Source: Myxococcota bacterium (GTDB lineage Bacteria > Myxococcota_A > Bradymonadia > UBA7976 > UBA1532). From it: 64,000 nucleotides of DNA. The stretch lies in contig CAUJDF010000071.1 in assembly GCA_963169045.1 (NCBI GenBank), forward strand, positions 1 to 64,000, written 5' to 3'. The position numbers and the translations under genes were made by a program. Of this stretch, positions 8,711 to 63,642 are shown in pieces; within the stretch, counting starts at the first letter, position 1; every line of letters starts with the position of its first letter. The notes below the pieces were generated by a model. It saw nothing but the letters and a program-made list of their open reading frames with translations. It ran no database searches and was not told the DNA's origin.

Positions 8711-10210
8711 TCAGCGCAGGCCGAACGCGGACATCTTGCGCTTCAGGGTGTTGCGGTCGACGGCGAGGGCGCGCGCGGCGGCCGAGAGGTTGCCGCGGTG
8801 TACGGCGAGAGCGTCGGCGACGGCGGCGCGCTCGGCGGCGGCGACGACCTCGGCGAGCGGCGCCACGCTGCCGGCGGACGGCGCCACGCTGCCGGCGAGG
8901 GACGCGCCGGCGGACGGCGTCGCGCTGCCGGCGAGGGGCGCGCCGGCGGACGGCAACCCGGCGGCGGGCGGCACCGCCGGCGCGCCGGCCGCGATCGCCG
9001 GCGACAGGTCGGCCAGGTCGACGACGTCGTCGCAGAACACCGTCCAGCGGCGGACCTCGGCGCCGAGCTCGCGCACGGTCCCCGGCCACGCGTAGGCCTG
9101 CAGCGCCTGCCACGCGCGCCGCGTGGGCTGCAGCCGGCGGCCCTCCGACGCGAGGAAGTGGGCCACGAGCAGCTCGAGGTCGCCCGCGCGTTCGCGCAGC
9201 GGCGGTACGCGCAGCGTCGCCCCCTCGAGCCGGTAGTAGAGGTCCTCGCGAAACTCGCCGCGTGCGACGAGCGCCGGCAGGTCGCGGTGGGTGGCGGCGA
9301 CGACGCGCACGTCGACCCGGACCGGCTGCTCGCCGCCGACGCGCCGCAGCACGCCCTCCTGCAGCACGCGCAGCAGCTGCACCTGCACGCGCGGCGGCAG
9401 CTCGCCCACCTCGTCGAGGAAGAGCGTCCCGCCGTGCGCCTGCTCGAACAGGCCGCGGTGCCGCCCCGTCGCGCCGGAGAACGCGCCCGCCTCGTGCCCG
9501 AACAGCTCGCTCTGCAGCACGCCCTCGGCGAACGCGCCGCAGTTCTCGGCCACGAACGGCCCCTCGGCGCGGTCGCTCGCCGCGTGGACCGCCCGCGCCA
9601 CGAGCTCCTTGCCCGTCCCCGTCTCGCCGAGCACCAGCACCGGCACCCGCGCCGCCCCCACGCGCGCCACGCGCTCCCGCAGCCGCCGCATCGCCGCGCT
9701 CTCGCCGACGAGCGTCCCCGCCAGCGCCGTCACGCGGGCCCGCAGCTGCACCACCTCGGCCCGCAGCGCCCGGATCTCGGGGAAGCCGTCGATGTCGAGC
9801 CGCACGGCCCGCACCGGCTCGGGGTGCGGGTGCGGCACGAAGCGCGGCGGGATCACCTGCAGCATGCGCGCGCGCAGCAGTCCGGCCTGCACGAGGATCA
9901 CCCAGATCGTCTGCGCCTGGGGCGTGCCGGCCGAGAGCAGCACGTCCACCTCGGCGTCGGGCGGCAGCGCCTCGACGACGGGGCCGACCGCCTTGAAGAG
10001 CGCGGCGTGGTCCGACGGATCGGGCACGTCGAGCACCTGCACCGAGCCGAAGCCCATCGCGCCGACGAGGGCGCGCGCGCCGGCACGGTCGCCGCGGTTG
10101 GTGAGCACGCGGGCGTCGTCGTAGCGCACGCCGCCGACGGCGAGCAGGCGCATGACCGGCCCCGGATCGCCCTGCTGGCCGGCGTGGGTCCACGTGAGGA
10201 GGAGGCGCAT
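8711..10210 (-). CDS. rtcR: RtcR-type sigma-54 activator with CARF-like sensor
   Basis: 499 residues in three parts. Residues 1-~185 are a Rossmann/CARF-like sensor ([12 protein letters not shown]..., then [18 protein letters not shown]), as in E. coli RtcR, which senses damaged-RNA ends. The AAA+ domain has [20 protein letters not shown] and a sigma-54 contact loop written GAFSGA, where the usual form is GAFTGA. An Ala/Pro/Ser-rich linker follows, then a Fis-type helix-turn-helix ending [11 protein letters not shown]. The gene is divergent from rtcB, as in the classical rtc locus, and its start codon lies at the edge of the 39-bp dyad, so it may regulate itself. Start: ATG 10210, where the sensor strand begins. 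A GATACAC run about 9 bases upstream of it may be its own -10. Confidence 0.92.
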
Positions 10211-10248
10211 GGTGCGTCGTGTATCACCATCTGATGCGCGACGCACCA
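10210..10248 (+). promoter_or_regulatory. 39-bp symmetric dyad, probable RtcR enhancer site
   Basis: TGGTGCGTCG at 10210-10219 is perfectly inverted as CGACGCACCA at 10239-10248. Inside them ATCA (10223-10226) and TGAT (10232-10235) are also inverted, with 3-base gaps on both sides, so 14 of 17 half-site positions are symmetric around 10229. The centre is about 89 bases upstream of the predicted rtcB start point, the normal distance for a sigma-54 activator site. The left end overlaps the rtcR start codon, so binding could also repress rtcR. The link to RtcR is inferred from position. Confidence 0.75.
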
Positions 10249-10291
10249 GCGCCGCGCACCGCCGACCCGCCTCGAGGCCCGAGACACCGTG

Positions 10292-10307
10292 TGGCACGCC
10301 TTTCGCT
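10292..10307 (+). promoter_or_regulatory. sigma-54 promoter of the rtcB operon
   Basis: TGGCACGCCTTTCGCT matches TGGCACG-N4-TTGCW with one mismatch, and GG-N10-GC spacing is exact (GG 10293-10294, GC 10305-10306). The predicted transcription start is near 10318, only 3 bases before the ATG at 10321. This rules out the upstream in-frame ATG at 10219 as the rtcB start for this promoter. Confidence 0.8.
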
Positions 10308-10320
10308 GTTGGGCCGCCGC

Positions 10321-11526
10321 ATGGAAATGCCCCGCAACACACGCCTCGTGGCCGATCCCGACGTCTGGATGGAGACGGCCGCCCTCGAGCAGCTGGCCCG
10401 CGTGGCCTGCCTGCCCGGCTGCCGCTGCGCCGTCGGCATGCCCGACCTGCACCCGGGCCGCGGCATCCCGATCGGCGCCGCGTTCGCATTCGCGGGCGTC
10501 GTCCACCCCGCGCTCGTCGGCGGCGACGCCGGTTGCGGCGCGCGTGTGTTCGGCGTCGCGAAGGCGAAGCACGACGGCGACGCGCTGCTGCGCCGCGTCG
10601 ACGAGGCGACCGCCGGCCCCGCGCTGCCGGACGTCGACCCTGGCGCGCTCCTCGCCGCCGTCTGGCGCGAGGGACCGCGCGCGCTCGCCACGCTCGACGG
10701 CGTGCCGGACTCGCTCGCCGAGCTCGCCGCCGCCGAGCCCGCCGACGACCAGGTCGCGAGCGGCCCGCCCCCCGGCGCAGGCGCCGGCGTCGCGAGCGGC
10801 CCGCCCCCCGACGATCCGCACCTCGGCGCGCAGATCGGCACCGTCGGCGGCGGCAACCACTTCGCCGAGATCTCGAGGGTGCGCGGCCGCGGCTTCGGGA
10901 CGGTGGCGGTCGTGGTGCACACCGGATCGCGCGGCGCGGGCGGCCTGATCGCGGCGAAGTGGCACGCGCCGCTCACCGACCCCGCCGCGTACCTCGCCGA
11001 TCTCGCCGGCGCCGTCCGCTTCGCGCGCGCCAACCGGCTCGTCGTCGCGTGGCGCCTCCTGCGAGCGCTCGGCGCGGCGCGGCCGTCCTCGATCGTCGCC
11101 ACGTTCGACGTGACCCACAACCACGTCGTCCCGGCGACGCTCGACGGCGAGGCCGTGTGGCTGCACCGCAAGGGCTGCGCGCCCGCGGATTCCGGGCAGA
11201 CGACGATCGTCCTCGGCAGCCGCGGCACGGAGAGCTGGATCCTGCGCGGCGAGGGGCGCGCGGACCTGCTCTGGTCCGTCGCCCACGGCGCCGGCCGCCG
11301 CATGGGCCGCAGCGAGGCGCTCGCGAAGCTCAAGGACCGCTACCCGCGCGCCTCGCTCGCCCGGACGGCCGCCGGCGGCCGCGTCGTCTGCGACGATCCC
11401 GCGCTGCTCTACGAGGAGCACCCCGACGCGTACAAGCCGGTGGAGCCGGTCGTCCGCAGCCTCGAGGCCGCGGGCGCCGCCACCCGGCTGGCCGCCCTCA
11501 CCCCCCTCGTCACGGTGAAGCGCTGA
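10321..11526 (+). CDS. rtcB: RNA ligase RtcB (RtcB2-like)
   Basis: GTP/Mn2+-dependent ligase that joins RNA 3'-phosphate or 2',3'-cyclic phosphate ends to 5'-OH ends. All catalytic positions are present: Cys72 in GGDAGCG, Asn179-His180 in GGGNHF, His200 in VHTGSRG, His266 in THNHV, and the guanylylated His322 in AHGAGR. The protein has 401 residues from ATG 10321, close to E. coli RtcB; ATG 10327 is equally possible. The start is set by the sigma-54 promoter just upstream and by [17 protein letters not shown] near the N-terminus. Its stop overlaps the next start (TGATG). Linkage to prfH marks it as the RtcB2 type that repairs cleaved ribosomal RNA. A Pro/Gly-rich insert (residues ~142-165) looks lineage-specific. 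Confidence 0.93.
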
Positions 11527-12215
11527 TGCGAACCGACATGGCCAAGGTGGTGGTCGAGCGCCCGCGGTGGGCCCACTCGGCGCGCAACGCGGACGTGCGG
11601 CGGATGCGCGGGCTCGTCCGTCGGGCGGACGCCGACGAGCTGCCCTCGCGCGCCGGCATGGCGCCGCGCCACGGCACGCTCAAGCAATTCAGCGACTTCC
11701 TCGCGCCGCTCCGCCGCTTCCTGCGCAGCCGCCTCGGTCGCCGCTGGGACGCGGTGTACGCCGAGATCCGCGCGCGCATCACGCCGGCGTCGACGGTGCA
11801 GATCCATGTGATGGAGCACCTCTGGCACTTCGTGAGCCGGCACGTGGACGTGCGGGACGGGCATGTGTTCGAGCGCGATGGCTTCGAGCTCTTCCGGACG
11901 GGCCGGACGTTCTACGTGCACCCGTCGACCGGGCTGCTCTGCGAGCCCTCGCACCGGCGGCCGTCGCGGCGCGCGCCCGCGTCCCCCGACCGCCTCGATC
12001 GCGGCGGCGGCCTGCTCTATCTGCGCCTCGCCGGGCAGTGGTACGCCGTCGAGACGCTGCCGGCGCGCGACGGCGCGCGGGACGCCGTCCTGTGCACGAC
12101 GGTCGACGCGTCCAACGCGAACGATCGCGAGGCGCTGTACGGCCGCCGCGGGCGGTACGCCGCCTCGAAGCGGCAGCTCGACCGCAAGCGCCTGCGCGAC
12201 GCGGGGCTGCGATGA
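11526..12215 (+). CDS. conserved unknown protein between rtcB and prfH (MRTDM family)
   Basis: 229 residues; function unknown. The start [14 protein letters not shown], then LAPLRRFLRSRLGRRWDAVYAEI and STVQIHVMEHLWHFV, match from memory a widespread family of small conserved hypothetical proteins in Myxococcota and related phyla. The N-terminal half is basic and helical. The C-terminal half has a strand-rich GTFYVHP-like core (RTFYVHPSTGLLCEPSHRR) and a basic tail, features compatible with RNA or ribosome binding. The ATG overlaps the rtcB stop (TGATG), so it is co-translated with rtcB and under the same sigma-54 promoter. Position alone suggests a role in ribosome repair, for example as a damage adaptor, but nothing in the sequence proves it. 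Confidence 0.8.
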   Translation: MRTDMAKVVVERPRWAHSARNADVRRMRGLVRRADADELPSRAGMAPRHGTLKQFSDFLAPLRRFLRSRLGRRWDAVYAEIRARITPASTVQIHVMEHLWHFVSRHVDVRDGHVFERDGFELFRTGRTFYVHPSTGLLCEPSHRRPSRRAPASPDRLDRGGGLLYLRLAGQWYAVETLPARDGARDAVLCTTVDASNANDREALYGRRGRYAASKRQLDRKRLRDAGLR

Positions 12216-12316
12216 GCGCCCGACGACGGCCCGACCGGCGACGTGGAACGGCGTTCGGCGCGCGGCGACGCTTCGGGCCGGAGCGACGGCGCGTGCGCGT
12301 CGCGGGTCGGCGATGA
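12212..12316 (+). other. possible 34-codon coupling ORF between the unknown gene and prfH
   Basis: An ATG inside the stop of the preceding gene (ATGA at 12212-12215) opens a 34-codon frame. It ends in a TGA that overlaps the prfH ATG (ATGA at 12313-12316). About half the residues are Arg, which reads more like GC-rich filler than a protein. It could serve purely to carry ribosomes into prfH. Both boundaries share the string cgatgagcgc, possibly the trace of a small duplication. Confidence 0.25.
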
Positions 12317-12906
12317 GCGCGTGGCATCTGCAGATCAGCGCCGGCGTGGGTCCGGTCGAGGTGCGGCGCTTCGTGGCGCGGCTCGCGCGCGACCTCGCGG
12401 ACGAGCTGCGCGCGCGTGGACTCGCCGTGGCTGCGGTGGCGTGGCGCGGCGACGAGGACGCCCCGCGCTCCGCCGTGCTGGTCGTCGAGCACGACGGCCC
12501 GCCCCCGGTCGGCGACCTCGTCGGCACGCACGCCTGCGTCTCGCCGGACCGCGGCCGCCGCGCCCGCAAGCGCTGGTTCGCCGGCGTGACGCTCCATGCC
12601 ACGCCCGCCGACGCCGCGCCCCTCGACGAGGACGACGTCGAGGTGACGGCGTGCCGTGCCGGCGGCCCCGGCGGACAGAACGTCAACAAGCGATCGACGG
12701 CGGTCCTGGCGAGACATCGCCCATCGGGGCTGGCGGTGCGCGCGGAGGGCGAGCGCTCCCAGCACCAGAACCGCAGCGCCGCCCTCGCCCGCCTCCGGGC
12801 GCTCCTCGCCGCGCAGTCCGACGAGGCGCGCGCCGCCGCGACCGCCGGCGAGCGCCTCGCCCACCACCGCCTCGTCCGCGGCGCGCCCGTCCGCCTCTGG
12901 CGCTGA
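12313..12906 (+). CDS. prfH: peptide chain release factor homolog PrfH
   Basis: PrfH is a codon-independent release factor relative that frees peptides from ribosomes cut in the decoding centre, so that RtcB2 can reseal the rRNA. The protein has 197 residues, the usual short size without the codon-recognition domain. AGGPGGQNVNKRSTAV holds the catalytic GGQ (residues 120-122), followed by HxPSGLAVRAEGERSQHQNR, the standard class I release-factor core. The N-terminus LQISAGVGPVEVRRFV is typical of PrfH and fixes the ATG at 12313. It is the last gene of the rtcB operon. Confidence 0.93.
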   Translation: MSAWHLQISAGVGPVEVRRFVARLARDLADELRARGLAVAAVAWRGDEDAPRSAVLVVEHDGPPPVGDLVGTHACVSPDRGRRARKRWFAGVTLHATPADAAPLDEDDVEVTACRAGGPGGQNVNKRSTAVLARHRPSGLAVRAEGERSQHQNRSAALARLRALLAAQSDEARAAATAGERLAHHRLVRGAPVRLWR

Positions 12907-45635: not shown

Positions 45636-46202
45636 GTGTCGCTCCCTGTCGGCCACGCCCTCGTCGGCTCGCTCGTCTACGCCGCCCTCGACCGCCGCGT
45701 GCGCTTCTGCTCGCGCCGCACCGCCTGGCTGCTCACGCTCGTCCTGCCGTCGGTGCCCGACTTCGACTTCGGCTTCGTCTGGATCCTCGGCTTCCCGGAA
45801 CACTGGCACCGCCACTTCACGCACTCGCTCTTCTTCGCCGCGGGGCTCGGCGCGCTCGCAGCCCTCTGGGTGCGCACGCGCGGCCGCGAGGGACCGGGCT
45901 GGGCCTTCCTCTTCGTGACGCTGCTCGTGGCGTCCCACGACCTCGTCGACATGGTGGGCTACGGACCGGACGACGGCCCGGGCGGCGGGGTGCCGCTGCT
46001 GTGGCCGGGCTCGGACCGCTTCTACGAGCTGCCGTGGCAGTTCCTCCCGCCCGGGACGGGCGAGAGCTTCTTCTGGTACCTGCGCACGGCCTGGATGGAG
46101 CTCTTCTTCCTCGGACCGCCGGTGGCGATCGTCTGGGCGATCAAACGCTGGCGCGCCGACGCCGCCGCAGGCCGGCGAGGACGAGCAGGCCCAGGGGCGT
46201 GA
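45636..46202 (+). CDS. YdjM-like membrane-bound metal-dependent hydrolase (DUF457)
   Basis: 188 residues from GTG 45636. HALVGSLVYAAL near the start, PSVPDFDFGF, HWHRHFTHSLFFAAGLG and SHDLVDMVG carry the conserved His/Asp ligands of the YdjM/DUF457 family, between four to five TM helices. Family members are predicted inner-membrane hydrolases linked to DNA-damage control in E. coli. The last 20 codons overlap, antisense, the C-terminus of the convergent DUF2330 gene by 62 bases, and there the reading becomes Arg/Gly-rich, so the real protein may have a frayed, non-conserved tail. Confidence 0.83.
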   Translation: MSLPVGHALVGSLVYAALDRRVRFCSRRTAWLLTLVLPSVPDFDFGFVWILGFPEHWHRHFTHSLFFAAGLGALAALWVRTRGREGPGWAFLFVTLLVASHDLVDMVGYGPDDGPGGGVPLLWPGSDRFYELPWQFLPPGTGESFFWYLRTAWMELFFLGPPVAIVWAIKRWRADAAAGRRGRAGPGA

Positions 46203-47750
46203 GCGAGGCACCGCCGGCCACGTCGCACCCGTCGTCGGCCGCCTTCGTGCCGCCCGGCTCGTCCTCTTCGATCTCCGGGCGCCGGTCCTCTTCGATCTCG
46301 GGCTGTCCGGCCGTGAGCAGCTGCTCGATCACCGCCGCCGCGGGCACGCCCATGCCGCGCACCGTCTGCCCCTCGCTGCGCCGGATGACGCGCGGGTTGC
46401 TGCCGTCGTCGCCGATGCGCACGCTGCCGCCGGCATCGGCCGCGAGCACCTGGCCCACCGTGTCGCCGCCGTCGTCGCACGTGACATACAGCGTCGCCGT
46501 GTGCACGTTGCTCACGTCGGGCAGGTCGCCGTTGAAGTCGAAGGACGGGTCGGCGTTCATCTCGGCGGGGCTCATCGTCGAGTAGAGGCGCGTCACGTAG
46601 GGCTGCGCGGCGAGCAGCGCGCGCAGGGTCTCGCGCGGCGCGTCGATCTCCGCCTCGACCTTGGCGGCGATGGCGTCGCCGTCCGCCGGCGCGGTCATGT
46701 CGGCGCCGACGCACTCCGGGCACTGCAGCCAGAACGCCGCGTTCTGCCCCTCGGGCAGCGCGATCTCGCCGTCGAGGATGCGCGCGAGGTCCGCGTCGCC
46801 GGCGAAGTTGAAGCCGGAGCCGACGATGACGCTGTGCACCTCGCCGCTCGTGTCGGCCTCGCGCAGCGCCACGACCAGCCCGTCGGGCGTGCCCGGCAGC
46901 GCGTCCTGCAGCGCGTTGTGGGGCCCGGCGTAGTCGGTGGCGAACGCCTGGCCGCCCGCCTCGTCGACGGCCTGGCTCACCACGTCCGGGTAGTTCTGCC
47001 CGCCGCCGAGCCAGTCGATCGCGCTCTCGTTGATGCGCACGTGACGGTAATTCACCGGCACCGCCCGCGAATCTCCGAGGATGTGCACGATGATGCCCAT
47101 GTCGGGGTTGGCGGCGACGGACGTCGGCACGATGGGGATCGCCGGCCGGTTGCCCGGGAACCGCAGCCGCACCGGCTGGATGTCGCCCTCGTCGGCGCCC
47201 GGCAGCAGCTTGAGCGCGACGAACACCGCACCCGCCTCGAGGTACGGCTGCAGCTTCGCGTCGATGCCCTCCGGGACCTGGAACTCGTTCTCGTCGAGCC
47301 ACGCGCGCAGGTCGGCGATGCTGCGCGCCTCGAGGACGGCCTGGTCGTAGGGGCCCACCGCCTCGCGCGAGAGCACCTCGACGCCGCGGCCACCGCCGCC
47401 GCCGTCCTCGGCGTTGGGCGCGCCGGCGGCGAAGTCGGGCACCGCGCAGTTCTCGCCGAAGTCGCGGTTGAGCTGGAACACGGGGGCGAACCGCTGGTCG
47501 AGCAGCGTGAAGAGCTGCTCGCTCGACAGGTCCGTCCTGACGCCGCGCGGCACCGGCAGCAGCCAGCCGAAGTCGGTCGGCGGACCCTGGTAGGTGATGC
47601 GCACGTGCATGTCGACGTGGCCGTCGTCCACCGCGAAGAGGATGCGCTCCGCCGCCTGGTTCACCGGCGTCGTCGTGTTGCAGAACAGGCCGCCGCAGGC
47701 GAGCGCCGCCGACGGCGCGGCCGCGAGCGCGGCGGTGATGACGAGCTTCT

Positions 47751-47754
<4 letters not shown>
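46141..47754 (-). CDS. DUF2330 exported protein with MYXO-CTERM-like tail
   Basis: 537 residues. The Sec signal ends ...SAALACGG, and CGGLFCNTTTPVNQAAERILFAVDD is the DUF2330 start, with two Cys at once after cleavage. The DUF2330 body (~20-330) includes GWLLPVP and the YVTRLYSTMSPAEM block near its end. The C-terminus GCDVAGGASLTPLGLLVLAGLRRRRR is a MYXO-CTERM sorting signal (small Cys motif, TM helix, Arg cluster), processed by a myxosortase in Myxococcota. Function of DUF2330 is unknown. Coupled to fumC by an ATGA overlap, an odd partner. Confidence 0.88.
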
Positions 47755-49318: not shown

Positions 49319-50995
49319 ATGAAACGACAGACACTCGCCGCGCTGGCGCTGCTCGCCGCGCCGGCGCCCGCCCTCGCCTGCGGCGGCTTCTTCTGCAGCT
49401 CGGCGCCCGTCGACCAGAGCGCGGAGCGCATCCTCTTCGTGCAGGAGGACCCGCAGACCGTCTCCGCCTACGTCGAGATCAAGTTCGCCGGCGATCCCGA
49501 GACGTTCTCGTGGATCGTGCCCGTCCCCGCCAAGCCCGACATGGACGTGTGGCACGGCGCGGCCTTCGACGCGCTCGACCAGGCGACGCAGCCGGTCTTC
49601 AACACGCCGTGGCAGTGCTTCGCGCCCGAGGCCGCGGCGGGCGGCGGCCTCGACGACGACGCCGATCCGGCGCCGGTGAACGTGCTCGCCCGCGAGCAGA
49701 TCGGCGACTACGACACGGCGGTGATCGAGTCGTCCGATCCGCGCGCGCTCGTCGAGTGGCTGCGCACCAACGGCTACCGCATCACCCCGGAGATGGAACC
49801 CTTCGTCGCGCTCTACACCGCCGAGGGCATGAAGTTCACCGCGATCAAGCTCGTGGCCGGCAAGGGCATCGACTCGATCAAGCCGCTCAAGATGACCTAC
49901 CCGAGCGGCGGGCCGACGGTGCCGCTGCGCCTGACGTCGATCGCCGCCCAGCTCGAGATGGGCGTGAAGGTCTGGATCGTCGGCGACCAGCGCTTCGGGC
50001 CGATCGAAGGCGTCGAGAACCTCGAGCTCGACGACGCCGAGCTCGTCTTCGATCCCAACACGTTCCAGACGAACTACCTCCCGCTCGTGGCGCGCAAGGT
50101 GGACGCCGCCGGTGGGCGCGCCTTCTTCACCGAGTACGCGCAGCCCAGCGGGCCGCTCGCCGACCAGATCGAGGGGGGCGGCGTGCCGGACTGGGCCGAC
50201 GAGGACGCCCACGCCGCGTTCGACGGCCTCCTGCAGGTCCTCCGCAGCAAGACCTACGTCACGCGCCTGTACACGCGGCTGTCGCCCGAAGAGATGACGT
50301 ACGACCCGATCTTCGTCCCGATCGAGGGCGGCGATGTGTCGAACGCGCACACCGTCCCCGTGCCGCCGGGCGTCGACCCGAACAGCTGCGGCGGCATCGA
50401 CGAGACGGCGCTCCCCGATCCGTGCGAGTTCGTCGCGTGCGGCGCCGGCGGCCAGTGCTTCGTCGCGCAGGACGGCGCGACCGGCGCGGTCGAGACGGGC
50501 TGCGCCTGCGCCGAGGGCGCCGTGGCGCGGCCCCAGGGCGACGTCGCGCCGGGCGGCGCGGTGCGGCCGACCGTCGCGTGCGGCGACGCGCGCCTCAACT
50601 TCACCGCGCCGGACCTCGTGATCGACCGGCCCGACCTCACCTTCTCGTTCGACCCGTGCCGCAGCGATCCGTGCGGCGACGGCGGCGAGTGCGTGGCGAT
50701 GAACGGCTCGCAGTCCTGCCGCTGCGAGCGCGGCTTCGTCGCCGTGGGGCGCGTCGACCCCGAGGGCAAGCCGTTCGCCACCTGCGTCGAGCCGCGCGAC
50801 CGCGTCCCCGACGAGTTCTACGAGCGCGAGCTGCCCGAGCCGGACCTGCCGTTCCCCGGCCGCCGGGCGAAGAGCCGCGGCGCCGCCGTCGCGGACGACG
50901 GCTGCAGCGCCGTCGGATCGAGCGCGCCCGCCGGCCTCGCGCTGCTCGCCCTTGTCTTCGCGCCGCTCGCCCGCCGCCCGCGCCGCCCGCGCTGA
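49319..50995 (+). CDS. DUF2330 exported protein with EGF-like module and MYXO-CTERM tail
   Basis: 558 residues, paralogue of the DUF2330 gene on the other side of fumC. Signal and mature start ALACGGFFCSSAPVDQSAERI, then the DUF2330 body to about residue 345. Residues ~365-490 are cysteine-rich: CEFVACGAGGQCFVAQDGAT and CRSDPCGDGGECVAMNGSQS are EGF-like repeats. The C-terminus GCSAVGSSAPAGLALLALVF plus an Arg cluster is a MYXO-CTERM sorting signal. GGGAG about 8 bases before the ATG. Convergent with the PilZ gene, 4 bases apart. Confidence 0.88.
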   Translation: MKRQTLAALALLAAPAPALACGGFFCSSAPVDQSAERILFVQEDPQTVSAYVEIKFAGDPETFSWIVPVPAKPDMDVWHGAAFDALDQATQPVFNTPWQCFAPEAAAGGGLDDDADPAPVNVLAREQIGDYDTAVIESSDPRALVEWLRTNGYRITPEMEPFVALYTAEGMKFTAIKLVAGKGIDSIKPLKMTYPSGGPTVPLRLTSIAAQLEMGVKVWIVGDQRFGPIEGVENLELDDAELVFDPNTFQTNYLPLVARKVDAAGGRAFFTEYAQPSGPLADQIEGGGVPDWADEDAHAAFDGLLQVLRSKTYVTRLYTRLSPEEMTYDPIFVPIEGGDVSNAHTVPVPPGVDPNSCGGIDETALPDPCEFVACGAGGQCFVAQDGATGAVETGCACAEGAVARPQGDVAPGGAVRPTVACGDARLNFTAPDLVIDRPDLTFSFDPCRSDPCGDGGECVAMNGSQSCRCERGFVAVGRVDPEGKPFATCVEPRDRVPDEFYERELPEPDLPFPGRRAKSRGAAVADDGCSAVGSSAPAGLALLALVFAPLARRPRRPR

Positions 50996-51946: not shown

Positions 51947-53785
51947 GTGCCACACGGTGGCGCGCGGCTCCACGCGACGGAACGGCCGTTGCTCTTGCCG
52001 GGGAAGGTGGGGAGAAATCTCGTCATCGCCGTTGCGTCGGTGCTCGCGGTCGCCTGCGGCGAAGTCGCGACGACCGACGTGCGCCCGGGCGGCGTCCATC
52101 CCGCCGGGTGGGCCGACGCGCACGGCGCCGCGCTGCGGGCCGGCGGTCACGACCTCGACCCGTGTTATGCCTGCCATCGCGAGGGCGAAGAATCCTTCGT
52201 ATGCAATGAATGCCATACGAAGGGGCCCGAGTCCTGCGACACGTGCCACGCGACGCCGCCGCCGCCGCACGCCGCCCACGGCGACTACCCGTGCGGGACG
52301 TGCCACGTCGTGCCCGGCGGGCTGCGGGCGCCCGGCCACCTGCAGGACCGCGGCCCCGGCGACGTGCGCTTCGCGGGGGGGCTCGCGGGCAGCGCCGCCG
52401 CCTTCAACGGCGAGACGTGTAGCGATACGCGCTGCCACGCCGGCCCCGGGGCGGCCCTGCCCACCCCCGCCTGGGCGCCGCGCGAGATCGCCTGCGGCGA
52501 CTGCCACTCGTCGCCGCCGCCCGAGCACCCGCAGGACCGCTGCGATCGCTGCCACACCGGCGGCGGCGGCGACGGTCACGTCGACGGGCGCGTCGCGGTG
52601 AACGACGCGCGCCGCGACGGCTGCGACGCCTGCCACGGCGCCGCCGGCGATCCCGCCCCCCCGCCGGGCCTCTCCGGATCGAGCGACCCCGCCGATCCCG
52701 GCGTCGGCGCGCACCTCGCGCACCTGCGGCCCGCGCAGTCGGCCCCCGTCGCCTGCGAGACGTGCCACGTGGTCCCGCGCCGCCCCACCGATCCCGGACA
52801 CCTCGACGGGGTCACCCAGGTCCTCGTCGGACGGTACGCCGCCGGCACCTGCGCCGACACCGGCTGCCACGGGTCGGACCGGCCCACGTGGACGGGCGAG
52901 GCGCCGTGCGGCTCGTGCCACGGGACGCCGCCCGCGGGGCACCCGGCCGGCGACTGCGCCCGCTGCCACCTGACGGCGGCCCCCGGCGGCGGCATCGCCC
53001 TGCCGGCGGCCCACGTCGACGGCCGCGTCGACGCCGGCGGCGAAGACTGCGCCGCGTGCCACGGCGACGGCGGGCGCGTGCCGCCCGGCGGCAGTCACGC
53101 CGCCCACGCCCGCTACGCGTGCGCGACCTGCCACCCGGCGGGCACGCACCTCGACGGCGCGGCGCAGGTCGCGATCGCCGCGGGCGGCACGTTCGAGCGC
53201 GGGCGCTGCGCCGACGCCGCGTGCCACGGCCCGAACCGCCCCGTCTGGGGCCGCGCCGAGACGGTCGAGGGCTGCGGGTCGTGCCACGGCGCCCCGCCCG
53301 CGGACCACCCCGAAGGCGCGTGCGCGACGTGCCACCCGGCCGAGCGCCACGCCGACGGGCGCCTCGACGTCGCGCTGCCCGAGGACTGCGGCGCGTGCCA
53401 CCTCGCCGAACCCGTGAGCGGCGCCCACGCCGCCCACCGCGCCGGGACGCGCGCCGCGGTCGTGCCCTGCGGCACCTGCCACCGCGTCCCCGAGCGCCCC
53501 GACGCGCCCGGTCACCTCGACGCCGCGCCGGTCGAGGTCGTGCTCGCCACCGGCGTCGTGCGCGACGGCACGTGCGCCGACACCGCGTGTCACGCCCAGC
53601 CCGGCGCGGGCCGCCCCGCACCGGCGTGGACCGACGGTCCGCAGGCGTGCGACGCCTGCCACGGCCTGCCGCCGCCCGCCCACTGGACGTTCCCCTGCGC
53701 GACGTGCCACTCGGCCGTCGTCGACGCCGACAACCGCATCATCGCCCCGGCGCGCCACGCCGACGGCCGGGTGGATCTGCGATGA
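51947..53785 (+). CDS. multihaem c-type cytochrome lipoprotein (CxxxxCH/CxxCH type)
   Basis: 612 residues with 18 CxxCH and 4 CX4CH motifs (CSDTRCH, CADTGCH, CADAACH, CADTACH), the mix seen in Geobacter-type CxxxxCH/CxxCH cytochromes. Motifs repeat in blocks, each with a C(A/S)DxxCH followed by GSCHGxPPxxHP. Lipobox ASVLAVAC follows a long N-region when read from GTG 51947; GTG 52007 (VGRNLVIAVASVLAVAC) would give a standard signal, so the start is uncertain. Expected outside the inner membrane, probably at the outer membrane. It is the first gene of the operon and its stop overlaps the porin gene start (ATGA). Confidence 0.9.
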   Translation: MPHGGARLHATERPLLLPGKVGRNLVIAVASVLAVACGEVATTDVRPGGVHPAGWADAHGAALRAGGHDLDPCYACHREGEESFVCNECHTKGPESCDTCHATPPPPHAAHGDYPCGTCHVVPGGLRAPGHLQDRGPGDVRFAGGLAGSAAAFNGETCSDTRCHAGPGAALPTPAWAPREIACGDCHSSPPPEHPQDRCDRCHTGGGGDGHVDGRVAVNDARRDGCDACHGAAGDPAPPPGLSGSSDPADPGVGAHLAHLRPAQSAPVACETCHVVPRRPTDPGHLDGVTQVLVGRYAAGTCADTGCHGSDRPTWTGEAPCGSCHGTPPAGHPAGDCARCHLTAAPGGGIALPAAHVDGRVDAGGEDCAACHGDGGRVPPGGSHAAHARYACATCHPAGTHLDGAAQVAIAAGGTFERGRCADAACHGPNRPVWGRAETVEGCGSCHGAPPADHPEGACATCHPAERHADGRLDVALPEDCGACHLAEPVSGAHAAHRAGTRAAVVPCGTCHRVPERPDAPGHLDAAPVEVVLATGVVRDGTCADTACHAQPGAGRPAPAWTDGPQACDACHGLPPPAHWTFPCATCHSAVVDADNRIIAPARHADGRVDLR

Positions 53786-54972
53786 AGGCCCCCCTCACCC
53801 TCGGAGCGCTCTGCGCGGCGATCGCGTCGGGCGGGCTCGCCGCCGCGGAGCCCGCGGCCGCGCCCGCCGGCGAGGTCGTCGCGCGCACGAGGCTCTGGCT
53901 GCGCCTCGATCCGCGCGCCGACGACGCGATCGGCAGCGTGTCGGTGGCGGCGCGCGGCGACGTCGACGCCGAGGCGAGCGCGTGGATCGCGGGGTGGCCG
54001 CGCGACGAGGGCGATCCGGTCACCGGCGACGTGCGGACGCTCTTCGTGCGCGACACGTTCGGGCCGGCCTGGGTGGCGATCGGCCGGCAGTGGACGGCGA
54101 TCGGCGGGCTGCGGCTCGAGACGTTCGACGGCGCGACGGCCGGCATCGGCTGGGATCCCGTGGCCGTGCGCGCCCGCGCGGGCCTCGCGCGCCCCGACGA
54201 GGGGCCCGGTTTCGGCGACGCGCTGCTCGCCGCGGCCGAGGCGGCGGTGACCGCCGGCGACGTGTCGGCCACCGTCGGCGCGAGCCTCGAGCGCGCCACC
54301 GACGTGGCGCCCCGCGGCCGCTGGACGCTCGCCGCCGACTGGGTGCCCTCCGCCGACTTCACCGCCCGCGCCGGCGCCACCGCCGACGCCGCCGCGCGCG
54401 CGCTCGTCGAGGCGCGGATCGAGGTCGGCGCCCGTCCGCTGGATTACGTGTGGATCCGCGGCTTTGCGCGACGCACGCACCTCGACCGCCTGCTCGGCGC
54501 CGACGAGATCCTCAGCGCGTTCGCCGTCGCCGAAGCCGAGAACGAGGCGGGCGGCGTCGCCGAGTGGCGCGTGGTCGAGGCGGTCTCGGTCCGCGGCGAG
54601 GGCGCGGCGCTGGGCCCGGCCGAGAGCCGCTGGCGCACGGGCGTCGACGTGCGCCCCGCGGCCGGCGCGTGGGTCGGCGGCGAGGGCACGCTCCTGCTCG
54701 ACCACGACGGCCGCACCGCCATCGCCCGCGCCGGCACCCGCTGGCCGCTCGTCGCGACGCTCTTCGGCACCGCCGATCTCGTGGTCGCCGAGGGCGACGA
54801 CGCGTGGACGCGCACCGGCCGCCTCGGCCTCGGCCTGACGCCCTGGGAGGACTGGACGCTGTTCGGCGCCTTCGAAGCGGAGCGATCCATCGCGTGGCGC
54901 GAGCGCTACGCCGGCCTGGTGCTGCTCGAGTACGCGCTCGGCGCGCCCACCCGCTTCGGAGGCATCCCGTGA
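53782..54972 (+). CDS. outer-membrane beta-barrel, porin of the cytochrome conduit
   Basis: 396 residues with a Sec signal (TLGALCAAIASGGLAAAE). The rest is alternating strands with aromatic ends and short turns (WVAIGRQWTAIGGLRLETFDG; WTLAADWVPSADFTARAGATAD; WVGGEGTLLLDHDGRTAIARAGTRW) and ends in a short tail after ALGAPTRFG. No haem motif. It is embedded between two multihaem genes with ATGA and GTGA overlaps. That order is what porin-cytochrome complexes (MtrB or OmbB type) show: the porin houses a cytochrome that crosses the outer membrane. It is shorter than MtrB (~700), so fewer strands are expected; I count room for about 16-20. Confidence 0.75.
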   Translation: MKAPLTLGALCAAIASGGLAAAEPAAAPAGEVVARTRLWLRLDPRADDAIGSVSVAARGDVDAEASAWIAGWPRDEGDPVTGDVRTLFVRDTFGPAWVAIGRQWTAIGGLRLETFDGATAGIGWDPVAVRARAGLARPDEGPGFGDALLAAAEAAVTAGDVSATVGASLERATDVAPRGRWTLAADWVPSADFTARAGATADAAARALVEARIEVGARPLDYVWIRGFARRTHLDRLLGADEILSAFAVAEAENEAGGVAEWRVVEAVSVRGEGAALGPAESRWRTGVDVRPAAGAWVGGEGTLLLDHDGRTAIARAGTRWPLVATLFGTADLVVAEGDDAWTRTGRLGLGLTPWEDWTLFGAFEAERSIAWRERYAGLVLLEYALGAPTRFGGIP

Positions 54973-55979
54973 AGCGCCTCCTGCCGCTGCTGCTGCTCGC
55001 CGCGTGCGCCTCCGAGACGCGCGCCCCGCGCGAGGCGGGCGTGGGGCACGTGGCGCACGCGCGCGCCGGCGTGCACTGCACCCGCTGCCACGGCGACCTG
55101 GCCGTCGGTCCGGCGCCGCACCTGCCCGACGACGCCACCTGCGCCGGCTGCCACGCCGAGGCGCACCCCGGCCAGGAGAACCGCGCCTGTACGGCGTGCC
55201 ACGTCGACGCCGACGCCCGCGCCACGCTCGTCACCGCGGCGGCGGCGATGCGCTTCGACCACGCGCGCCACCTGCCCGAGGTGCGCGGCGACTGCGTCGG
55301 GTGCCACCGCGGCGCCGTGCGGCCCGACGTCGAGCACCCGAGCGGACTGCCGGCGATGAACGACTGCCGCCCCTGCCACGACGACCTGCTCGACCGCGGG
55401 ACGTGCGACGCGTGCCACGTCTCGCTCGCGCAGTACCCGGTGCGCCCGGCCACCGGCATGGCCCACGCCGCCGACTTCCTGCGCCGGCACGCGCTCGAGG
55501 CGCGCGTCGCCCAGGACCGCTGCGCGTCGTGCCACACGCAGTCGTCGTGCGCCGACTGCCACGACCAGCGCGCGCCGCTCGCGCCCGACGTGGCGTTCGC
55601 GGACCGCCCGGACCGCGCCTTCGTGCACCGGCCCGGCTACGTCGGCTGGCACGCCGGCGAGGCCCGTCTCGACGGCGCCGCCTGCCTGGGCTGCCACGGC
55701 GAGTCGTCGTGCGCCGCGTGCCACGCGCAGCGGCTGCCCGCCGGCTCGCCGCACCCCGCCGACTGGGCCTCGCCCGGTCCCGGTCCGAACCTGCACGCCG
55801 CCGCCGCCCGCCGCGATCTGATGGCCTGCGCCGGGTGCCACACGGGATCGGGCGGCGACACGTGCGTCGCGTGCCACGCGTCGGGGCGCCCCGGCGGCTC
55901 CCCGCACGGCGGCGCCCGGCCCGCCGGCGATCCGACGCGCGACCGGCCGTGCCGCGCCTGCCACGGAGGTGCGCCGTGA
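54969..55979 (+). CDS. 13-haem c-type cytochrome lipoprotein
   Basis: 336 residues from GTG 54969, whose GTGA overlaps the porin stop. Lipobox LLLLLAACAS puts the lipid at Cys13. There are 13 CxxCH motifs, some paired closely (CASCHTQSSCADCH; CLGCHGESSCAACH), as in compact haem wires. The mature part has almost no other domain. Placed after the porin gene, it is a candidate for the cytochrome inserted in or docked to the porin, on the periplasmic side. Confidence 0.92.
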   Translation: MKRLLPLLLLAACASETRAPREAGVGHVAHARAGVHCTRCHGDLAVGPAPHLPDDATCAGCHAEAHPGQENRACTACHVDADARATLVTAAAAMRFDHARHLPEVRGDCVGCHRGAVRPDVEHPSGLPAMNDCRPCHDDLLDRGTCDACHVSLAQYPVRPATGMAHAADFLRRHALEARVAQDRCASCHTQSSCADCHDQRAPLAPDVAFADRPDRAFVHRPGYVGWHAGEARLDGAACLGCHGESSCAACHAQRLPAGSPHPADWASPGPGPNLHAAAARRDLMACAGCHTGSGGDTCVACHASGRPGGSPHGGARPAGDPTRDRPCRACHGGAP

Positions 55980-57988
55980 TCCGCCGGCTGCTGCGGCGCT
56001 ACCGCAAGTTCCTGCTCATCGCCGGCGCGGCGAGCGTGATCATCGGCGCGCCCATCGCCTACAAGGCGCACGACTACATCCAGAACGACCCGAACTTCTG
56101 CACGTCGTGCCACATCATGGACGACGCCTTCAGCCGCTGGTCCGAGAGCGGCCACAAGGACGTCAACTGCCACACGTGCCACCCCGGCGATCTCGCCAGC
56201 AACCTGCACCAGGTCTGGGTGACGTTCACCTCCGACCAGAGCACGGTGAAGAAGCACGCCCACGTGCCCGCGGAGATCTGCGGGCAGTGCCACCTGTCGA
56301 ACGACCCGAAGTGGAAGCAGATCGCGGAGACCGCCGGCCACAAGCTGCACTTCGGGCAGCTCGGCGTGCAGTGCGTGACGTGCCACGCCGCCGAGATCCA
56401 TCAGTTCCGGCCGACCGACGAGATGTGCAAGGGGTGCCACTACACGCAGACCGTCGGGCTGACGGCCATGCAGCGCAACCACTGCACGTCGTGCCACGAC
56501 TTCCTCGGGCCGGTGGCCGCGGGGCTGCGGCCGGACAACGCGAAGTGCGGCGAGTGCCATGCCCAGGGCATCGACGGCGCGCCGGCGCTCGCCACGGGCT
56601 GGCACGACGGCGTCGCGTGCGGTGACTGCCACCCCGTGCACGACCCGGCGATGAACTCCGACGAGGCGCCGACGCGCGACGGCGCCGCGCGTCCCTGCGC
56701 CGAGTGCCACGCCGACGTCCCCGATCCCACGTTCGTGTTCGGCGGGGAGGACGCGTCGCGGTCGCGGACGGCGAAGGCGGCCGGCGGACGGGCGGGCGCC
56801 GCCCGGGGCCGCGGCGCGCGCAGCGGCCTGCCGGGCGAGGGCCACGACCGCTGCGCCTCGTGCCACGTGCCGCACTCCGCGGTGTCGCCGGTGGAGCGGT
56901 GCCGCGACTGCCACGTCGACGCCGCGGCGCGCCTGCCCGTCGACGGGCCGCACGTCTGCACCGACTGCCACGTGGCGCACGAGCCGGACGTCGACCCGCG
57001 CGACCGCTGCGACGACTGCCACCGTCCGGCGCAGGCGCTCGCCGCCGCCACGCCGGTCGCCGAGCACCGCGACTGCGTCAACTGCCACGAGGCGCATGCG
57101 CCGGGCCCGCCCGACGCGCCCGCGTGCGCCAACTGCCACGCGGACGAGGCCCGGCTCGCGCGCGCCGGCGGCCCCGCCGCCCACCAGCAGTGCGCGGGCT
57201 GCCACAAGGTCCACGCGCCGGAGTCGCCGCGCCGCTGCGCCAGCTGCCACGGCGAGCCCACCGCGGCCGACGCGCCCCCCGCGCACCGCGACTGCGACAA
57301 CTGCCACCGTCCGCACGGATCGCCGCTCGCCGGCGAGGCGAAGTGCGCGGAATGTCACGCAAATCCGGTGCAGCAGGCCGCGCTCGGCCCGCGGGAGCAC
57401 GGCCGCTGCGGCGACTGCCACACGGCCCACGATCCGACGCCGGTGCCCGGCGACACCTGCGCCGGCTGCCACACGGTCCGGACCGACGCGCCGCACGCGG
57501 ACTGCACCTCGTGCCACCCGCGCCACGACCGCCGTCCGCCGGCGGCCCTGTGCGCCGGCTGCCACGCCGAGAAGGTCCAGCGCGGCATCCCGGCGGGCCA
57601 CGCCGACTGCACCGGCTGCCACGCGCCGCACCGCGTCTCCCCCGAGGGCGCGTGCGCCGCCTGCCACGCCGGCCCGGCGGCGGGCGCCCGCACCGCGGCC
57701 CGGCCCGAGCACCGCGAGTGCGCGAGCTGCCACGGCGACGCGCACGGCCGGGCCGCGCCGTCCTGCAAGGACTGCCACGCCGACGCCACGAGCACCGGAT
57801 TGCACGCCGTGGAGGCGCACCGCGACTGCGCGGGCTGCCACGGCGACCACCCGCCCCGGCCGGCGCCGGCGCGGATCTGCCTCGATTGCCACGACATGGA
57901 TCGCATCGCGCGCCATCCCCCGGAGGCGCGCGGGGTCACGACGTGTTCGGGTTGCCACAACTTCCGGGGGAAGGGAGAGGGACGATGA
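55976..57988 (+). CDS. 30-haem NapC/NirT-anchored cytochrome
   Basis: 670 residues from GTG 55976 (GTGA overlap with the stop before it; GGAGG 6 bases upstream). The N-terminus is a single TM helix (YRKFLLIAGAASVIIGAPIAY), followed by NDPNFCTSCHIMDDAF, the NapC/NirT signature of quinol-oxidising anchors. The first nine CxxCH (residues ~41-245) form the NapC/NrfH-like and spacer part. After a low-complexity linker (~255-285) come about 21 further CxxCH motifs in an array of about 17-23-residue repeats (C..CHxxHxP). In total 30 haems. It would take electrons from menaquinol and hand them across the periplasm. I know no named family combining both parts. Confidence 0.9.
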   Translation: MIRRLLRRYRKFLLIAGAASVIIGAPIAYKAHDYIQNDPNFCTSCHIMDDAFSRWSESGHKDVNCHTCHPGDLASNLHQVWVTFTSDQSTVKKHAHVPAEICGQCHLSNDPKWKQIAETAGHKLHFGQLGVQCVTCHAAEIHQFRPTDEMCKGCHYTQTVGLTAMQRNHCTSCHDFLGPVAAGLRPDNAKCGECHAQGIDGAPALATGWHDGVACGDCHPVHDPAMNSDEAPTRDGAARPCAECHADVPDPTFVFGGEDASRSRTAKAAGGRAGAARGRGARSGLPGEGHDRCASCHVPHSAVSPVERCRDCHVDAAARLPVDGPHVCTDCHVAHEPDVDPRDRCDDCHRPAQALAAATPVAEHRDCVNCHEAHAPGPPDAPACANCHADEARLARAGGPAAHQQCAGCHKVHAPESPRRCASCHGEPTAADAPPAHRDCDNCHRPHGSPLAGEAKCAECHANPVQQAALGPREHGRCGDCHTAHDPTPVPGDTCAGCHTVRTDAPHADCTSCHPRHDRRPPAALCAGCHAEKVQRGIPAGHADCTGCHAPHRVSPEGACAACHAGPAAGARTAARPEHRECASCHGDAHGRAAPSCKDCHADATSTGLHAVEAHRDCAGCHGDHPPRPAPARICLDCHDMDRIARHPPEARGVTTCSGCHNFRGKGEGR

Positions 57989-60126
57989 AACGCTGGTTGA
58001 CCGCGAGCGTCGCGCTGCTCGCGCTCGCCTGCGAAGGTCCGACGGGATCGCGCGGACCGCAGGGCGAGCAGGGCGAGCCCGGGGCCGAAGGTGAGCCCGG
58101 CCAGCAGGGCCCGCAAGGTCCGCAAGGGGACGAAGGCGACCCCGGCGGCGCGGGCGGACGCGGCGAGCAGGGCGAGGACGGGCCGCAGGGCCCCGCGGGC
58201 GAGGACGGCGAGCCCGGCGCGCCGGGCGAGCAGGGCGAGCAGGGCGAGCAGGGTCCGGAGGGGCCGCAGGGTCCCGGCGGCGAGGACGGCGACGACGGCG
58301 CCGACGGCCGCAGCGCGCTCTTCACCGACGAAGAGGTGATCGTGGTCGTCGACTCGGTCGACGTCGACGAAGCCGGCCGCCCGATCGTGATGTTCCGCCT
58401 GACCGACGGCGACGACAAGCCGCTCGACCGCACCGGCACCTACACCGAGGGCGTCGTCGACCTCGCGTACACGCTGGCCGTCTACAACGCCGACGACACG
58501 TGGACGAGCTACATCACCCGCGAGGCCCGCGCCGGTCAGGTCGTCACGCAGCAGGCGACGAGCGAGAACAACGGCGCGCTCGAGCCCCTCGAGTTCGGCC
58601 AGTACATGTACACCTTCGCGACCGCGCTGCCCGCCGAGGCGGATCGCGAACGGCCGCACCGCATCGTCATCGGCGCGCGGCGCACGCTGCAGGACGGCGC
58701 CCGCACCGGCTCCTCGACCGCCGTCGACTTCGTCCCGTCGAGCGACGAGGTGCCGGTCGTGCCGCCGAACGTGGACGTCGACAACTGCAACGCGTGCCAC
58801 CGCGGCCTCGAGGGCCACGGCGGCCGCTGGACGGACACGACCGCCTGCGTGACGTGCCACACGGCGCAGACGATCGACCCGGACACCAACAACTCGGTGC
58901 GCTTCGACATCATGGTCCACCGCATCCACGCCGGCGCGAACCTGCCGAGCGTCCAGGGCGGCGAGCCCTACCAGATCATCGCCCGCGGCACGGTCCACGA
59001 CTTCTCGAACGTCGTGTTCCCGCGGCGCCTGGCCGACTGCAACGCCTGCCACGTCGAGGGCAAGCCGGGCGGCGCCGAGGTCACCTCGTGCACGTCGTGC
59101 CACGACCGCACCGCGTTCGGCCAGCAGGTCCCCGACGGCTGGACGCGCCACCTCGCCGGCCCGCAGCCCGAGGACCGCTGCGCCGCCTGCCACCCCGCCG
59201 ACGCGCCGTCGCCGGGCGTGTGGGACGCGCACCGCGCGCCGCTGCTCGACCCCGCGCTCGAGCTTGCGGGCCTGCGCACGGAGATCCTCGGGGTCGACGG
59301 CGCGGCGGCCGGCGCGGCGCCGACCGTGCGCTTCCGCCTGCTCGACGGCGCCGGCCAGCCCGTCGATCCGGCGCGCCTCGACAGCCTCGAGGTCACGGTC
59401 GCCGGCCCGGTGCCGGACTTCTCGTGGACGGTGACCAACGGCGGCGTGCAGGCGCGCGTGGTGGCCGACGGCGACGCGCTCGCGGTGCCGCTGGCGAATC
59501 CGATCCCGGCGGACGCCACGGGCACCGTCGCCGTGGGCATGGTCGCGTACCGCTACGTGCCCTACGGCTCGGGGCGCAACGACTCGATCGGCCGCGAGAC
59601 GGGCGGCAATCCGGTCGCCTACGTCGCGCTCGGCGAGGGCGCCGCCGCACGGCCGCGCAACGAGGTCGAGCTGGCGAAGTGCAACGCCTGCCACGGCGAG
59701 CTGGCGCTGCACGGCGGCTCCCGCAAGGAGATCGCGTACTGCCAGGAGTGCCACCACCAGAATGCGACCGACGTCGCGCGCCGTCCCGCGGATCAGGGCC
59801 CCCCGGCGAGCATCGAGCTCGGGCCGATGGTGCACGGCATCCACGCCGGCCACATGCGCGAGAACGGGCTCGTGATTTACGGCTTCGGCAACTCGCGGCA
59901 CGACTTCGGGCACGTCGCGTTCCCCGGCGCGCTGAATGACTGCGGCGCCTGCCACACCGGCAGCGGCTGGACGGATCCGTCGACGAAGATGTGCACGAGC
60001 TGCCACGACAGCAGCGACGCGAAGGCCCACGCCGCGCTCGAGACGGCGCCCGACGGCACCGAGGCCTGCGGCGTCTGCCACGGCCCGGGCCGCGAGTTCG
60101 CCGTCGACGTGCTTCACGCCCGCTGA
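57985..60126 (+). CDS. decaheme OmcA/MtrC-like surface cytochrome on a collagen-like stalk
   Basis: 713 residues from ATG 57985 (ATGA overlap). Lipobox ALLALAC puts the lipid at Cys16. Residues 18-110 are 31 uninterrupted Gly-X-Y triplets (GPQGEQGEP-like), a collagen-like stalk rich in Pro, Glu and Gln. The rest is an OmcA/MtrC-family decaheme cytochrome: a split beta domain (LFTDEEVIVVVDSVDVDEAG...), then CNACHRGLEGHGGRW with five haems (CxxCH at CNACH, CVTCH, CNACH, CTSCH, CAACH), a second beta domain, and five more (CNACH, CQECHH, CGACH, CTSCH, CGVCH), ten in total. MVHRIHAGANLP and MVHGIHAGH mark the two pentahaem halves. Terminal surface electron donor by analogy with MtrC/OmcA. Confidence 0.93.
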   Translation: MKRWLTASVALLALACEGPTGSRGPQGEQGEPGAEGEPGQQGPQGPQGDEGDPGGAGGRGEQGEDGPQGPAGEDGEPGAPGEQGEQGEQGPEGPQGPGGEDGDDGADGRSALFTDEEVIVVVDSVDVDEAGRPIVMFRLTDGDDKPLDRTGTYTEGVVDLAYTLAVYNADDTWTSYITREARAGQVVTQQATSENNGALEPLEFGQYMYTFATALPAEADRERPHRIVIGARRTLQDGARTGSSTAVDFVPSSDEVPVVPPNVDVDNCNACHRGLEGHGGRWTDTTACVTCHTAQTIDPDTNNSVRFDIMVHRIHAGANLPSVQGGEPYQIIARGTVHDFSNVVFPRRLADCNACHVEGKPGGAEVTSCTSCHDRTAFGQQVPDGWTRHLAGPQPEDRCAACHPADAPSPGVWDAHRAPLLDPALELAGLRTEILGVDGAAAGAAPTVRFRLLDGAGQPVDPARLDSLEVTVAGPVPDFSWTVTNGGVQARVVADGDALAVPLANPIPADATGTVAVGMVAYRYVPYGSGRNDSIGRETGGNPVAYVALGEGAAARPRNEVELAKCNACHGELALHGGSRKEIAYCQECHHQNATDVARRPADQGPPASIELGPMVHGIHAGHMRENGLVIYGFGNSRHDFGHVAFPGALNDCGACHTGSGWTDPSTKMCTSCHDSSDAKAHAALETAPDGTEACGVCHGPGREFAVDVLHAR
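58036..58314 (+). repeat. collagen-like Gly-X-Y repeat of the surface cytochrome
   Basis: A 9-base-period coding repeat (ggcgagcag, ggcccgcag and variants), 31 triplets without interruption. It should form a trimeric triple helix or at least an extended stalk. Confidence 0.9.
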
Positions 60127-62599: not shown

Positions 62600-63613
62600 T
62601 CAGGGCGCTGCGGCGGCCTTGCAGCGGCAGGTGTTCATCTTCTCGGCCCGCGCCTTCGCCCAGGCCCGCAGCGCGTCGACCTGCGCGGGATCCTCGGCGG
62701 TGAACGTCACGCGTGCGCCGCCCTCGACGTCCTCGACCTGACGCTTCGCCGCGGGGGCGGCGGCGTGGCCGCGGCCGTGCTTGCACGCGCAGGCGCCGTC
62801 GGCCTTGCCGGCGCAGTGCGGGCAGGCGCACGCCTCGCCCGCGCCCTGCTTGCACGCGCAGGCGCCGGCGGCCTTGCCGGCGCAGTGCGGGCAGGGACCG
62901 CCCGCGGCGGCCTTGCCGGCGCAGTGCGGGCAGGGCGCAGCCGCGCCGTCCTGACCGGCGACATGCGCGCCGTGGGCCCCGTCCTTGCCTGCGCCGTGCG
63001 GGCAGGGCGCAGCTGCGCCCGCGCCGTGCTTGCACGCGCACGCCGCGCCGTCGGCCTTGCCCGCGCAGTGCGGACACGCGCACGCCTCGCCCGCCGCGTG
63101 CTTGCAGGCGCAGCCGCCGGCAGCCTCCGACGCGCCCTGCTTGCAGGTGCAGCCGCCCGCGCCCTTGCCGGTGCACGGACCGCAGGCGCAGGCCTCACCC
63201 TCGCCGTGCTTGCAGGCGCACGCCGCGGGCGCGCCGCCCTCGGCGCCGTGGCCGTGGTGCGCGCCGCCGGCCGCCTTGCCGGCGCAGTGCGGGCACCCGC
63301 CGGCGCCGTGGTGCGCGCCGCCTCCGGCGAACATCGGCATCTCGACGACGGCCCGGACGCGGCGGCGCAGCTCGTCGACCTGCGCCGCTTCGGTCGTGGT
63401 GAAGGTGATCGTCGCGCCCCCCTCGGCGTCGGCGGCGGCGACCGCGACCGCAGGCAACGACATCGGGCAGATCGCGCACATCGGCCCGTGGCCGGGCTGC
63501 GTCGCGGCGGACTGCTGCGTCGCGGGCTGGCTCGCCGGTGCCTCGGCGCTCTTCGGGGCGCCGCCGCACGCGGCGAGCAGCAGGGCGATCGAAAGGAAGG
63601 CCAGACGACTCAT
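62600..63613 (-). CDS. Cys/His-rich metallothionein-like lipoprotein
   Basis: 337 residues from ATG 63613 (GAGGAGAG about 8 bases upstream); lipobox ALLLAAC, Cys16. Near the N-terminus ADAEGGATITFTTTEAAQVD and near the C-terminus DVEGGARVTFTAEDPAQVDA are two copies of one ~40-residue motif. The ~200 residues between them are tandem Cys/His repeats (CPHCAGKA, CACKHGAGEACACPHC), with some 30 Cys in total plus His and Lys. No CxxCH haem motif dominates; CPHC is the standard metal-chelating form. Likely a periplasmic or surface sponge for copper, zinc or similar ions. Convergent with the TetR-cupin operon, 2 bases apart. Confidence 0.82.
   Translation of the reverse strand: MSRLAFLSIALLLAACGGAPKSAEAPASQPATQQSAATQPGHGPMCAICPMSLPAVAVAAADAEGGATITFTTTEAAQVDELRRRVRAVVEMPMFAGGGAHHGAGGCPHCAGKAAGGAHHGHGAEGGAPAACACKHGEGEACACGPCTGKGAGGCTCKQGASEAAGGCACKHAAGEACACPHCAGKADGAACACKHGAGAAAPCPHGAGKDGAHGAHVAGQDGAAAPCPHCAGKAAAGGPCPHCAGKAAGACACKQGAGEACACPHCAGKADGACACKHGRGHAAAPAAKRQVEDVEGGARVTFTAEDPAQVDALRAWAKARAEKMNTCRCKAAAAP
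62760..63315 (-). repeat. Cys/His-coding repeat in the metallothionein-like gene
   Basis: About six imperfect copies of a segment coding CPHCAGKA, interleaved with CxCKHGxG coding units. The nucleotide repeat gccttgccggcgcagtgcgg (plus-strand reading, 20 bases) recurs several times, so copy number may vary between strains. Confidence 0.8.
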
Positions 63614-63642
63614 CGGGTTCTCTCCTCGACTCACGACGTTTC

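Follow-up and report, generated by a model that had tools for sequence, protein, structure and literature searches.

In extracellular respiration, electrons have to cross a periplasm of ~20 nm, either by shuttles or along a fixed wire, and a gene for a 30-haem cytochrome in the 64,000-nucleotide stretch of Myxococcota DNA analysed here (the window) bears on this choice. With anchor and candidate wire on one chain, the family of this cytochrome makes a clean test object, which within a single phylum comes fused (30 haems), as separate genes (3 + 27) and in a longer form (34). We regard the 30-haem fusion as a conserved family whose proposed function is plausible and testable. The gene is the fourth of a five-gene operon and overlaps its neighbour on each side by a few bases; the operon has the layout of a porin-cytochrome system, with a barrel gene beside genes for multihaem cytochromes:

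51947-53785, + strand: cytochrome with 18 CxxCH motifs, of the GSu CxxxxCH/CxxCH type (TIGR01904, 6.5e-20), a probable outer-membrane or surface lipoprotein; the start may be at 51989
53782-54972, + strand: outer-membrane beta-barrel of 396 aa with 22 predicted strands (AlphaFold2 pLDDT 79, pTM 0.72)
54969-55979, + strand: 13-haem cytochrome with LLLLAACAS in a lipoprotein-like N-terminus; stop overlapping with the 30-haem start
55976-57988, + strand: 30-haem fused cytochrome (TM helix, NapC/NrfH-like head, 27-haem array) of 670 aa, with a GTG start and a TGA stop
57985-60126, + strand: OmcA/MtrC-family decahaem surface cytochrome with a collagen-like N-terminus (TIGR03507, 332 bits against a cut-off of 209; Pfam Collagen, 1.4e-12)

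The product of 53782-54972 has no Pfam match; its Foldseek matches are outer-membrane barrels. Besides its 18 CxxCH motifs, the product of 51947-53785 carries four CxxxxCH motifs (CSDTRCH, CADTGCH, CADAACH, CADTACH), possibly four more haems. The collagen-like Gly-X-Y repeat at the N-terminus of the 57985-60126 product extends over ~90 residues and is perhaps a stalk, and some relatives have an additional 8-haem collagen-like cytochrome upstream.

The translation of 55976-57985 contains exactly 30 CxxCH motifs in 670 residues, compared with a mean of 0.5 and a maximum of 4 in residue-shuffled copies. The initial annotation had described a single 670-residue chain with an N-terminal TM helix, 30 haem motifs and a His between most of them, and this description was confirmed by translation, by motif count and by the AlphaFold2 model: a single N-terminal TM helix, predicted with high confidence, is followed by the first haem at residue 42, which is the NapC/NirT-type layout, all cysteines lie within CxxCH motifs, and a non-motif His follows nearly every motif. 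Haems 1-9 are found at residues 42-245, an Arg/Gly/Ala-rich stretch at ~250-288 and the other 21 motifs at 293-661. The parts of the protein are encoded as follows:

56003-56086, + strand: N-terminal membrane helix, residues 10-37 (AlphaFold2 pLDDT mostly >85; within the NrfH and PF03264 alignments)
56096-56293, + strand: NapC/NrfH-like head, haems 1-3, residues 41-106 (haem 1 CTSCHIM, with the invariant Met48; NrfH sequence homology covers haems 1-2)
56372-57958, + strand: continuous array, haems 4-30 (27 haems, ~20 residues per haem), with motif columns that match all 27 of the separate 27-haem lipoproteins
56726-56839, + strand: Arg/Gly/Ala-rich stretch between haems 9 and 10 (pLDDT <50), an insertion specific to this protein
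57944-57967, + strand: C-terminal last haem with a CxGCHxF(R) ending, conserved in both fused and separate arrays

An assembly artefact, or a frame-shift that joined two adjacent cytochrome genes, has to be considered for such a gene, since the region is repeat-rich, has 75% GC and contains an Arg/Gly stretch confined to this genome; the chance that this is the explanation is, however, practically negligible. The initial annotation had proposed a search for the same fusion elsewhere, and among 57 genomes of the class the same single-frame 30-haem protein was found in five others, all of the same family of Myxococcota and 38-49% identical to the protein of the window. Because all 30 motifs are present in these five orthologues, and fall in the same columns in all six proteins, the fusion is not an artefact of assembly; the DNA repeats within the gene are short and diverged, and there is no long near-identical repeat among them. 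A collapsed repeat or a stop between the two parts of the gene, the faults that the initial annotation had itself envisaged, is excluded: the orthologues, which are independent, have 30 haems as well. They are neighboured by the same genes, and the operon order is largely kept in relatives. A scan of a genome collection with the single 30-haem sequence gave no match, whereas a scan with the alignment did find relatives; a search of a plasmid collection with the 30-haem protein gave no match.

All six proteins share without change the 30 CxxCH motifs, the Met48 that follows haem 1 and a further 29 His. Of these His, 21 are spread over haems 10-30, one to each haem; one haem has no obvious invariant distal ligand in this comparison. 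Conservation is highest over haems 1-3, where identity is 56-72%. When motifs and His are removed, identity among the orthologues falls to 15-30% in the array and stands at 39-54% in the head, a difference that would follow if selection acted on the array chiefly as a carrier of haems.

Among the matches to the N-terminus, NrfH ranked first (2j7a, 3.6e-7 with the single sequence); a profile of 16 relatives matched NrfH at 6.7e-14 over the TM helix and haems 1-2. PF03264 scored 22.8 bits on the protein and 24.5 in the genome search (cut-off 24.1), with a match limited to residues 13-69, and 15 of the 16 head relatives matched it at E <= 0.01. NrfH also ranked first, weakly, when the model was compared with known structures (Z 3.8, rmsd 5.5, 122 aligned). 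The NapC/NirT resemblance named in the initial annotation covers the TM helix and haems 1-2, including a haem 1 of the CxxCHxM form, and stops there. The protein is not NrfH proper: TIGR03153 gave at most 47.7 bits against a cut-off of 134.2, no nrfA-like gene lies in the operon, and a distinct NrfH-like gene, next to one for a 5-haem protein, is present in the genome as well.

Whether the head meets quinol bears on the function of the whole protein. The segment between haems 2 and 3 holds, in D. vulgaris NrfH, Lys82 and Asp89, which contact quinol; in the 30-haem head this segment is ~9 residues shorter than in the NrfH of the same genome and could not be aligned to it, and the NrfH quinol-site segment was not recognisable in this comparison. 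The anchor could accordingly do no more than tether the array, with electrons supplied by a cytochrome b or a separate NapC protein, an arrangement with which paralogues of the 30-haem layout that lack the haem-1 Met, and a gene for a cytochrome b561-multihaem protein beside an array in another genome (G050), would also agree. Conservation that peaks at haems 1-3 argues against a mere tether, as does the operon, in none of whose five genes was another quinone enzyme recognised, and we consider this arrangement unlikely. The paralogues in question (L034 12533-14518, L035 1974-3935 and L036 3530-5554) read CTSCHGD at haem 1 and have no adjacent porin.

Where the head ends and the array begins is answered by relatives in which the two are encoded apart. 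A division into nine NapC-type haems, a low-complexity linker and a 21-haem array had been proposed for the chain; the division is wrong because NapC/NrfH homology ends after haem 2. Nor does the linker mark a boundary: the spacing between haems 9 and 10 is 52 residues in this protein and 15-21 in the five orthologues, so that the low-complexity stretch is an insertion specific to this genome and a nine-haem NapC domain split at it from a 21-haem array is ruled out. In a phylum-wide search, the array also occurred as a separate protein of 24-27 haems, mostly with a lipoprotein-like N-terminus, at seven loci (L033, L032, L080, L082, L073, L070 and L069). In a joint alignment the separate arrays fall on haem columns 4-30 of the fusion, four of them on 27 of 27, the best of four registers tested by spacing and His pattern, an alignment of repeats that does not prove one-to-one descent. 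Six of the seven loci also have a gene for a separate 3-haem protein whose N-terminus is hydrophobic, and the five 3-haem proteins scored on PF03264 reached 36.6-54 bits, all above the cut-off. The separate 3-haem and 27-haem genes elsewhere therefore correspond to the one 30-haem gene here (3 + 27 = 30), and these alignments place the natural fusion border between haems 3 and 4, with an array that is unbroken from haem 4 to haem 30.

Other partners and lengths occur more widely. An 18-haem array in G050 lies near the cytochrome b561-multihaem gene, which takes the place of a NapC/NirT gene, and further families comprise TM-anchored versions with 34 haems, in which the first haem of four of the five examined has the atypical form CX3CH, shared with ImcH. 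In a tree of the arrays (long branches, midpoint root) the fused, paralogous, TM-anchored 34-haem and separate forms each make one group. The fused NapC, separate NapC and cytochrome b561 versions suggest that the module on the quinone side of such wires can be swapped, which speaks for electron exchange between the array and quinol. More distant NapC-headed proteins carry 10-12 haems in Nitrospirota and Tectomicrobia and 17-18 in Gemmatimonadota. The statement in the initial annotation that NapC/CymA proteins typically have 4-5 haems holds for CymA homologues, but larger numbers occur in the distant NapC-headed proteins found here and are known from ImcH homologues, which have 5-9 CxxCH motifs (PMC6295460). 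At the Gemmatimonadota loci (L088, L090 and L091) the NapC-headed 17-18-haem proteins stand beside 8/9-haem and 16-haem cytochromes, and at L088 a possible barrel gene adjoins the NapC-headed protein; this set is apparently a parallel, shorter solution.

In the AlphaFold2 model of the full protein the mean pLDDT is 61, with values mostly <60 over the array. The solved structures that rank highest against a profile of the array are 2e84, 1gws and 3ov0, of the multi-domain c7 and Hmc kind. Crossing a periplasm of ~200 Å has been estimated to need ~27 haems (PMC7096707); the array has 27, and this agreement is an argument for a spanning wire, though no proof of one. One polypeptide may then lead electrons over fixed, uninterrupted haems all the way between quinone pool and conduit, its haem number set by the width of the periplasm and no diffusing carrier needed, a proposal to which we give somewhat less than even weight; if it is true, this would be extracellular respiration without a diffusing periplasmic carrier. 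The array could instead be mainly an electron store or a flexible, tethered periplasmic hub that does not reach the outer membrane, the gap being bridged by shuttles or by the 13-haem lipoprotein. Poor conservation of the array beyond motifs and His, the low confidence of its model and the retention in the genome of at least one small secreted 3-haem cytochrome are all compatible with such a role; a mere store, however, would not need 30 haems fixed in six orthologues and 27 in four separate arrays, and the overlap of the 30-haem gene with genes of an outer-membrane conduit also speaks against it, so that we judge it improbable.

Parts of this arrangement are known from other systems. Multi-domain c7 and Hmc cytochromes share with the array repeated c7/c3-like bis-His haem motifs; they are soluble, carry 12-16 haems and, to our knowledge, have no NapC-type anchor. 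The MtrCAB and OmbB-OmaB-OmcB conduits resemble the operon in combining a barrel, multihaem cytochromes on both sides and an OmcA/MtrC-family decahaem, but the 13-haem and 18-haem partners found here are unlike MtrA or OmaB, and a fused, membrane-anchored array stands in place of CymA and shuttle proteins. The N-terminal TM helix, the CxxCHxM haem 1 and the dihaem segment are shared with NapC/NirT proteins (NrfH, CymA) and ImcH, which have 4-9 haems in contrast to the 30 on one chain here; the number is 4-5 in CymA homologues, while ImcH, which is similar to NapC in part, carries seven haem motifs (PMC6295460). No mtrAB or mtoAB was found adjacent to imcH, whereas the 30-haem gene lies inside a porin-cytochrome operon. 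Another near parallel is PCC3 of Sideroxydans and others. It combines a porin and an extracellular cytochrome with a periplasmic cytochrome that packs 21-27 haems at few residues each and is proposed to span the periplasm, and its inner-membrane partner is a separate 5-TM b-type protein (PMC5566968, PMC10734462); a wire across the periplasm has therefore been proposed in print before. The likeness, a periplasmic cytochrome of at least 21 haems with a porin and an extracellular cytochrome, is one of operon content and inferred locations, compared by description. The difference lies in the membrane anchor, which is NapC-like and fused to the array here and a separate 5-TM protein in PCC3; a separate 5-TM protein with HX13H motifs is absent among the five overlapping operon genes, all of which are accounted for. 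In the open-access literature searched, we found no description of the NapC-like anchor fusion, the fixed 30-haem length or the split counterparts.

The content of the operon suggests that the other end of the array meets the outer-membrane conduit. The most probable reading, in which we have rather better than even confidence, is that the 30-haem protein is an inner-membrane-anchored conduit that links the menaquinone pool and the outer-membrane conduit on one chain. The head would exchange electrons with the menaquinone pool; electrons would pass along one covalent chain of ~30 mostly bis-His haems through the periplasm; and the conserved C-terminal haem would hand them to the conduit formed by the 13-haem lipoprotein, the barrel, the 18-haem cytochrome and the OmcA/MtrC decahaem, most likely for the reduction of an extracellular acceptor, e.g., a metal oxide. 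In this reading, quinol oxidation, the direction of flow, the extended shape and a C-terminus that docks on the outer-membrane complex are inferred. The quinol dehydrogenase with a built-in wire that was first proposed for this gene thus keeps its NapC/NrfH-type anchor, fused to a very long array, conserved in orthologues and set in a conduit operon, with the border moved to haems 3/4. The same architecture could also run inward, with the head as a quinone reductase and electrons taken from outside (e.g., from Fe(II) or another cell), and this we consider quite improbable: the operon includes an OmcA/MtrC decahaem, and such decahaems are most often tied to the reduction of external acceptors. 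In its favor, PCC3 and Mto systems with similar parts have been proposed to serve electron uptake (PMC5566968, PMC10734462), and CymA can both oxidise quinol and reduce quinone (PMC6295460).

Several other genes were noted in the window and elsewhere in the genome. Upstream of the operon, two similar proteins (46141-47754, − strand, and 49319-50995, + strand) have an ACGGxFC N-terminus, and the second is a DUF2330 protein (Pfam). Downstream, 62600-63634 (− strand) encodes a lipoprotein-like product with many CPHCAGKA and CACKH repeats, which are Cys/His-rich, are not haem motifs and perhaps bind metal. On another contig of the same genome (C94, L040), 9095-12618 holds the gene of a 739-aa secreted protein with 30 CxxCH motifs and no NapC head and, after it, a 435-aa gene that has no match in Pfam and may encode a further barrel, which could make this a second conduit.
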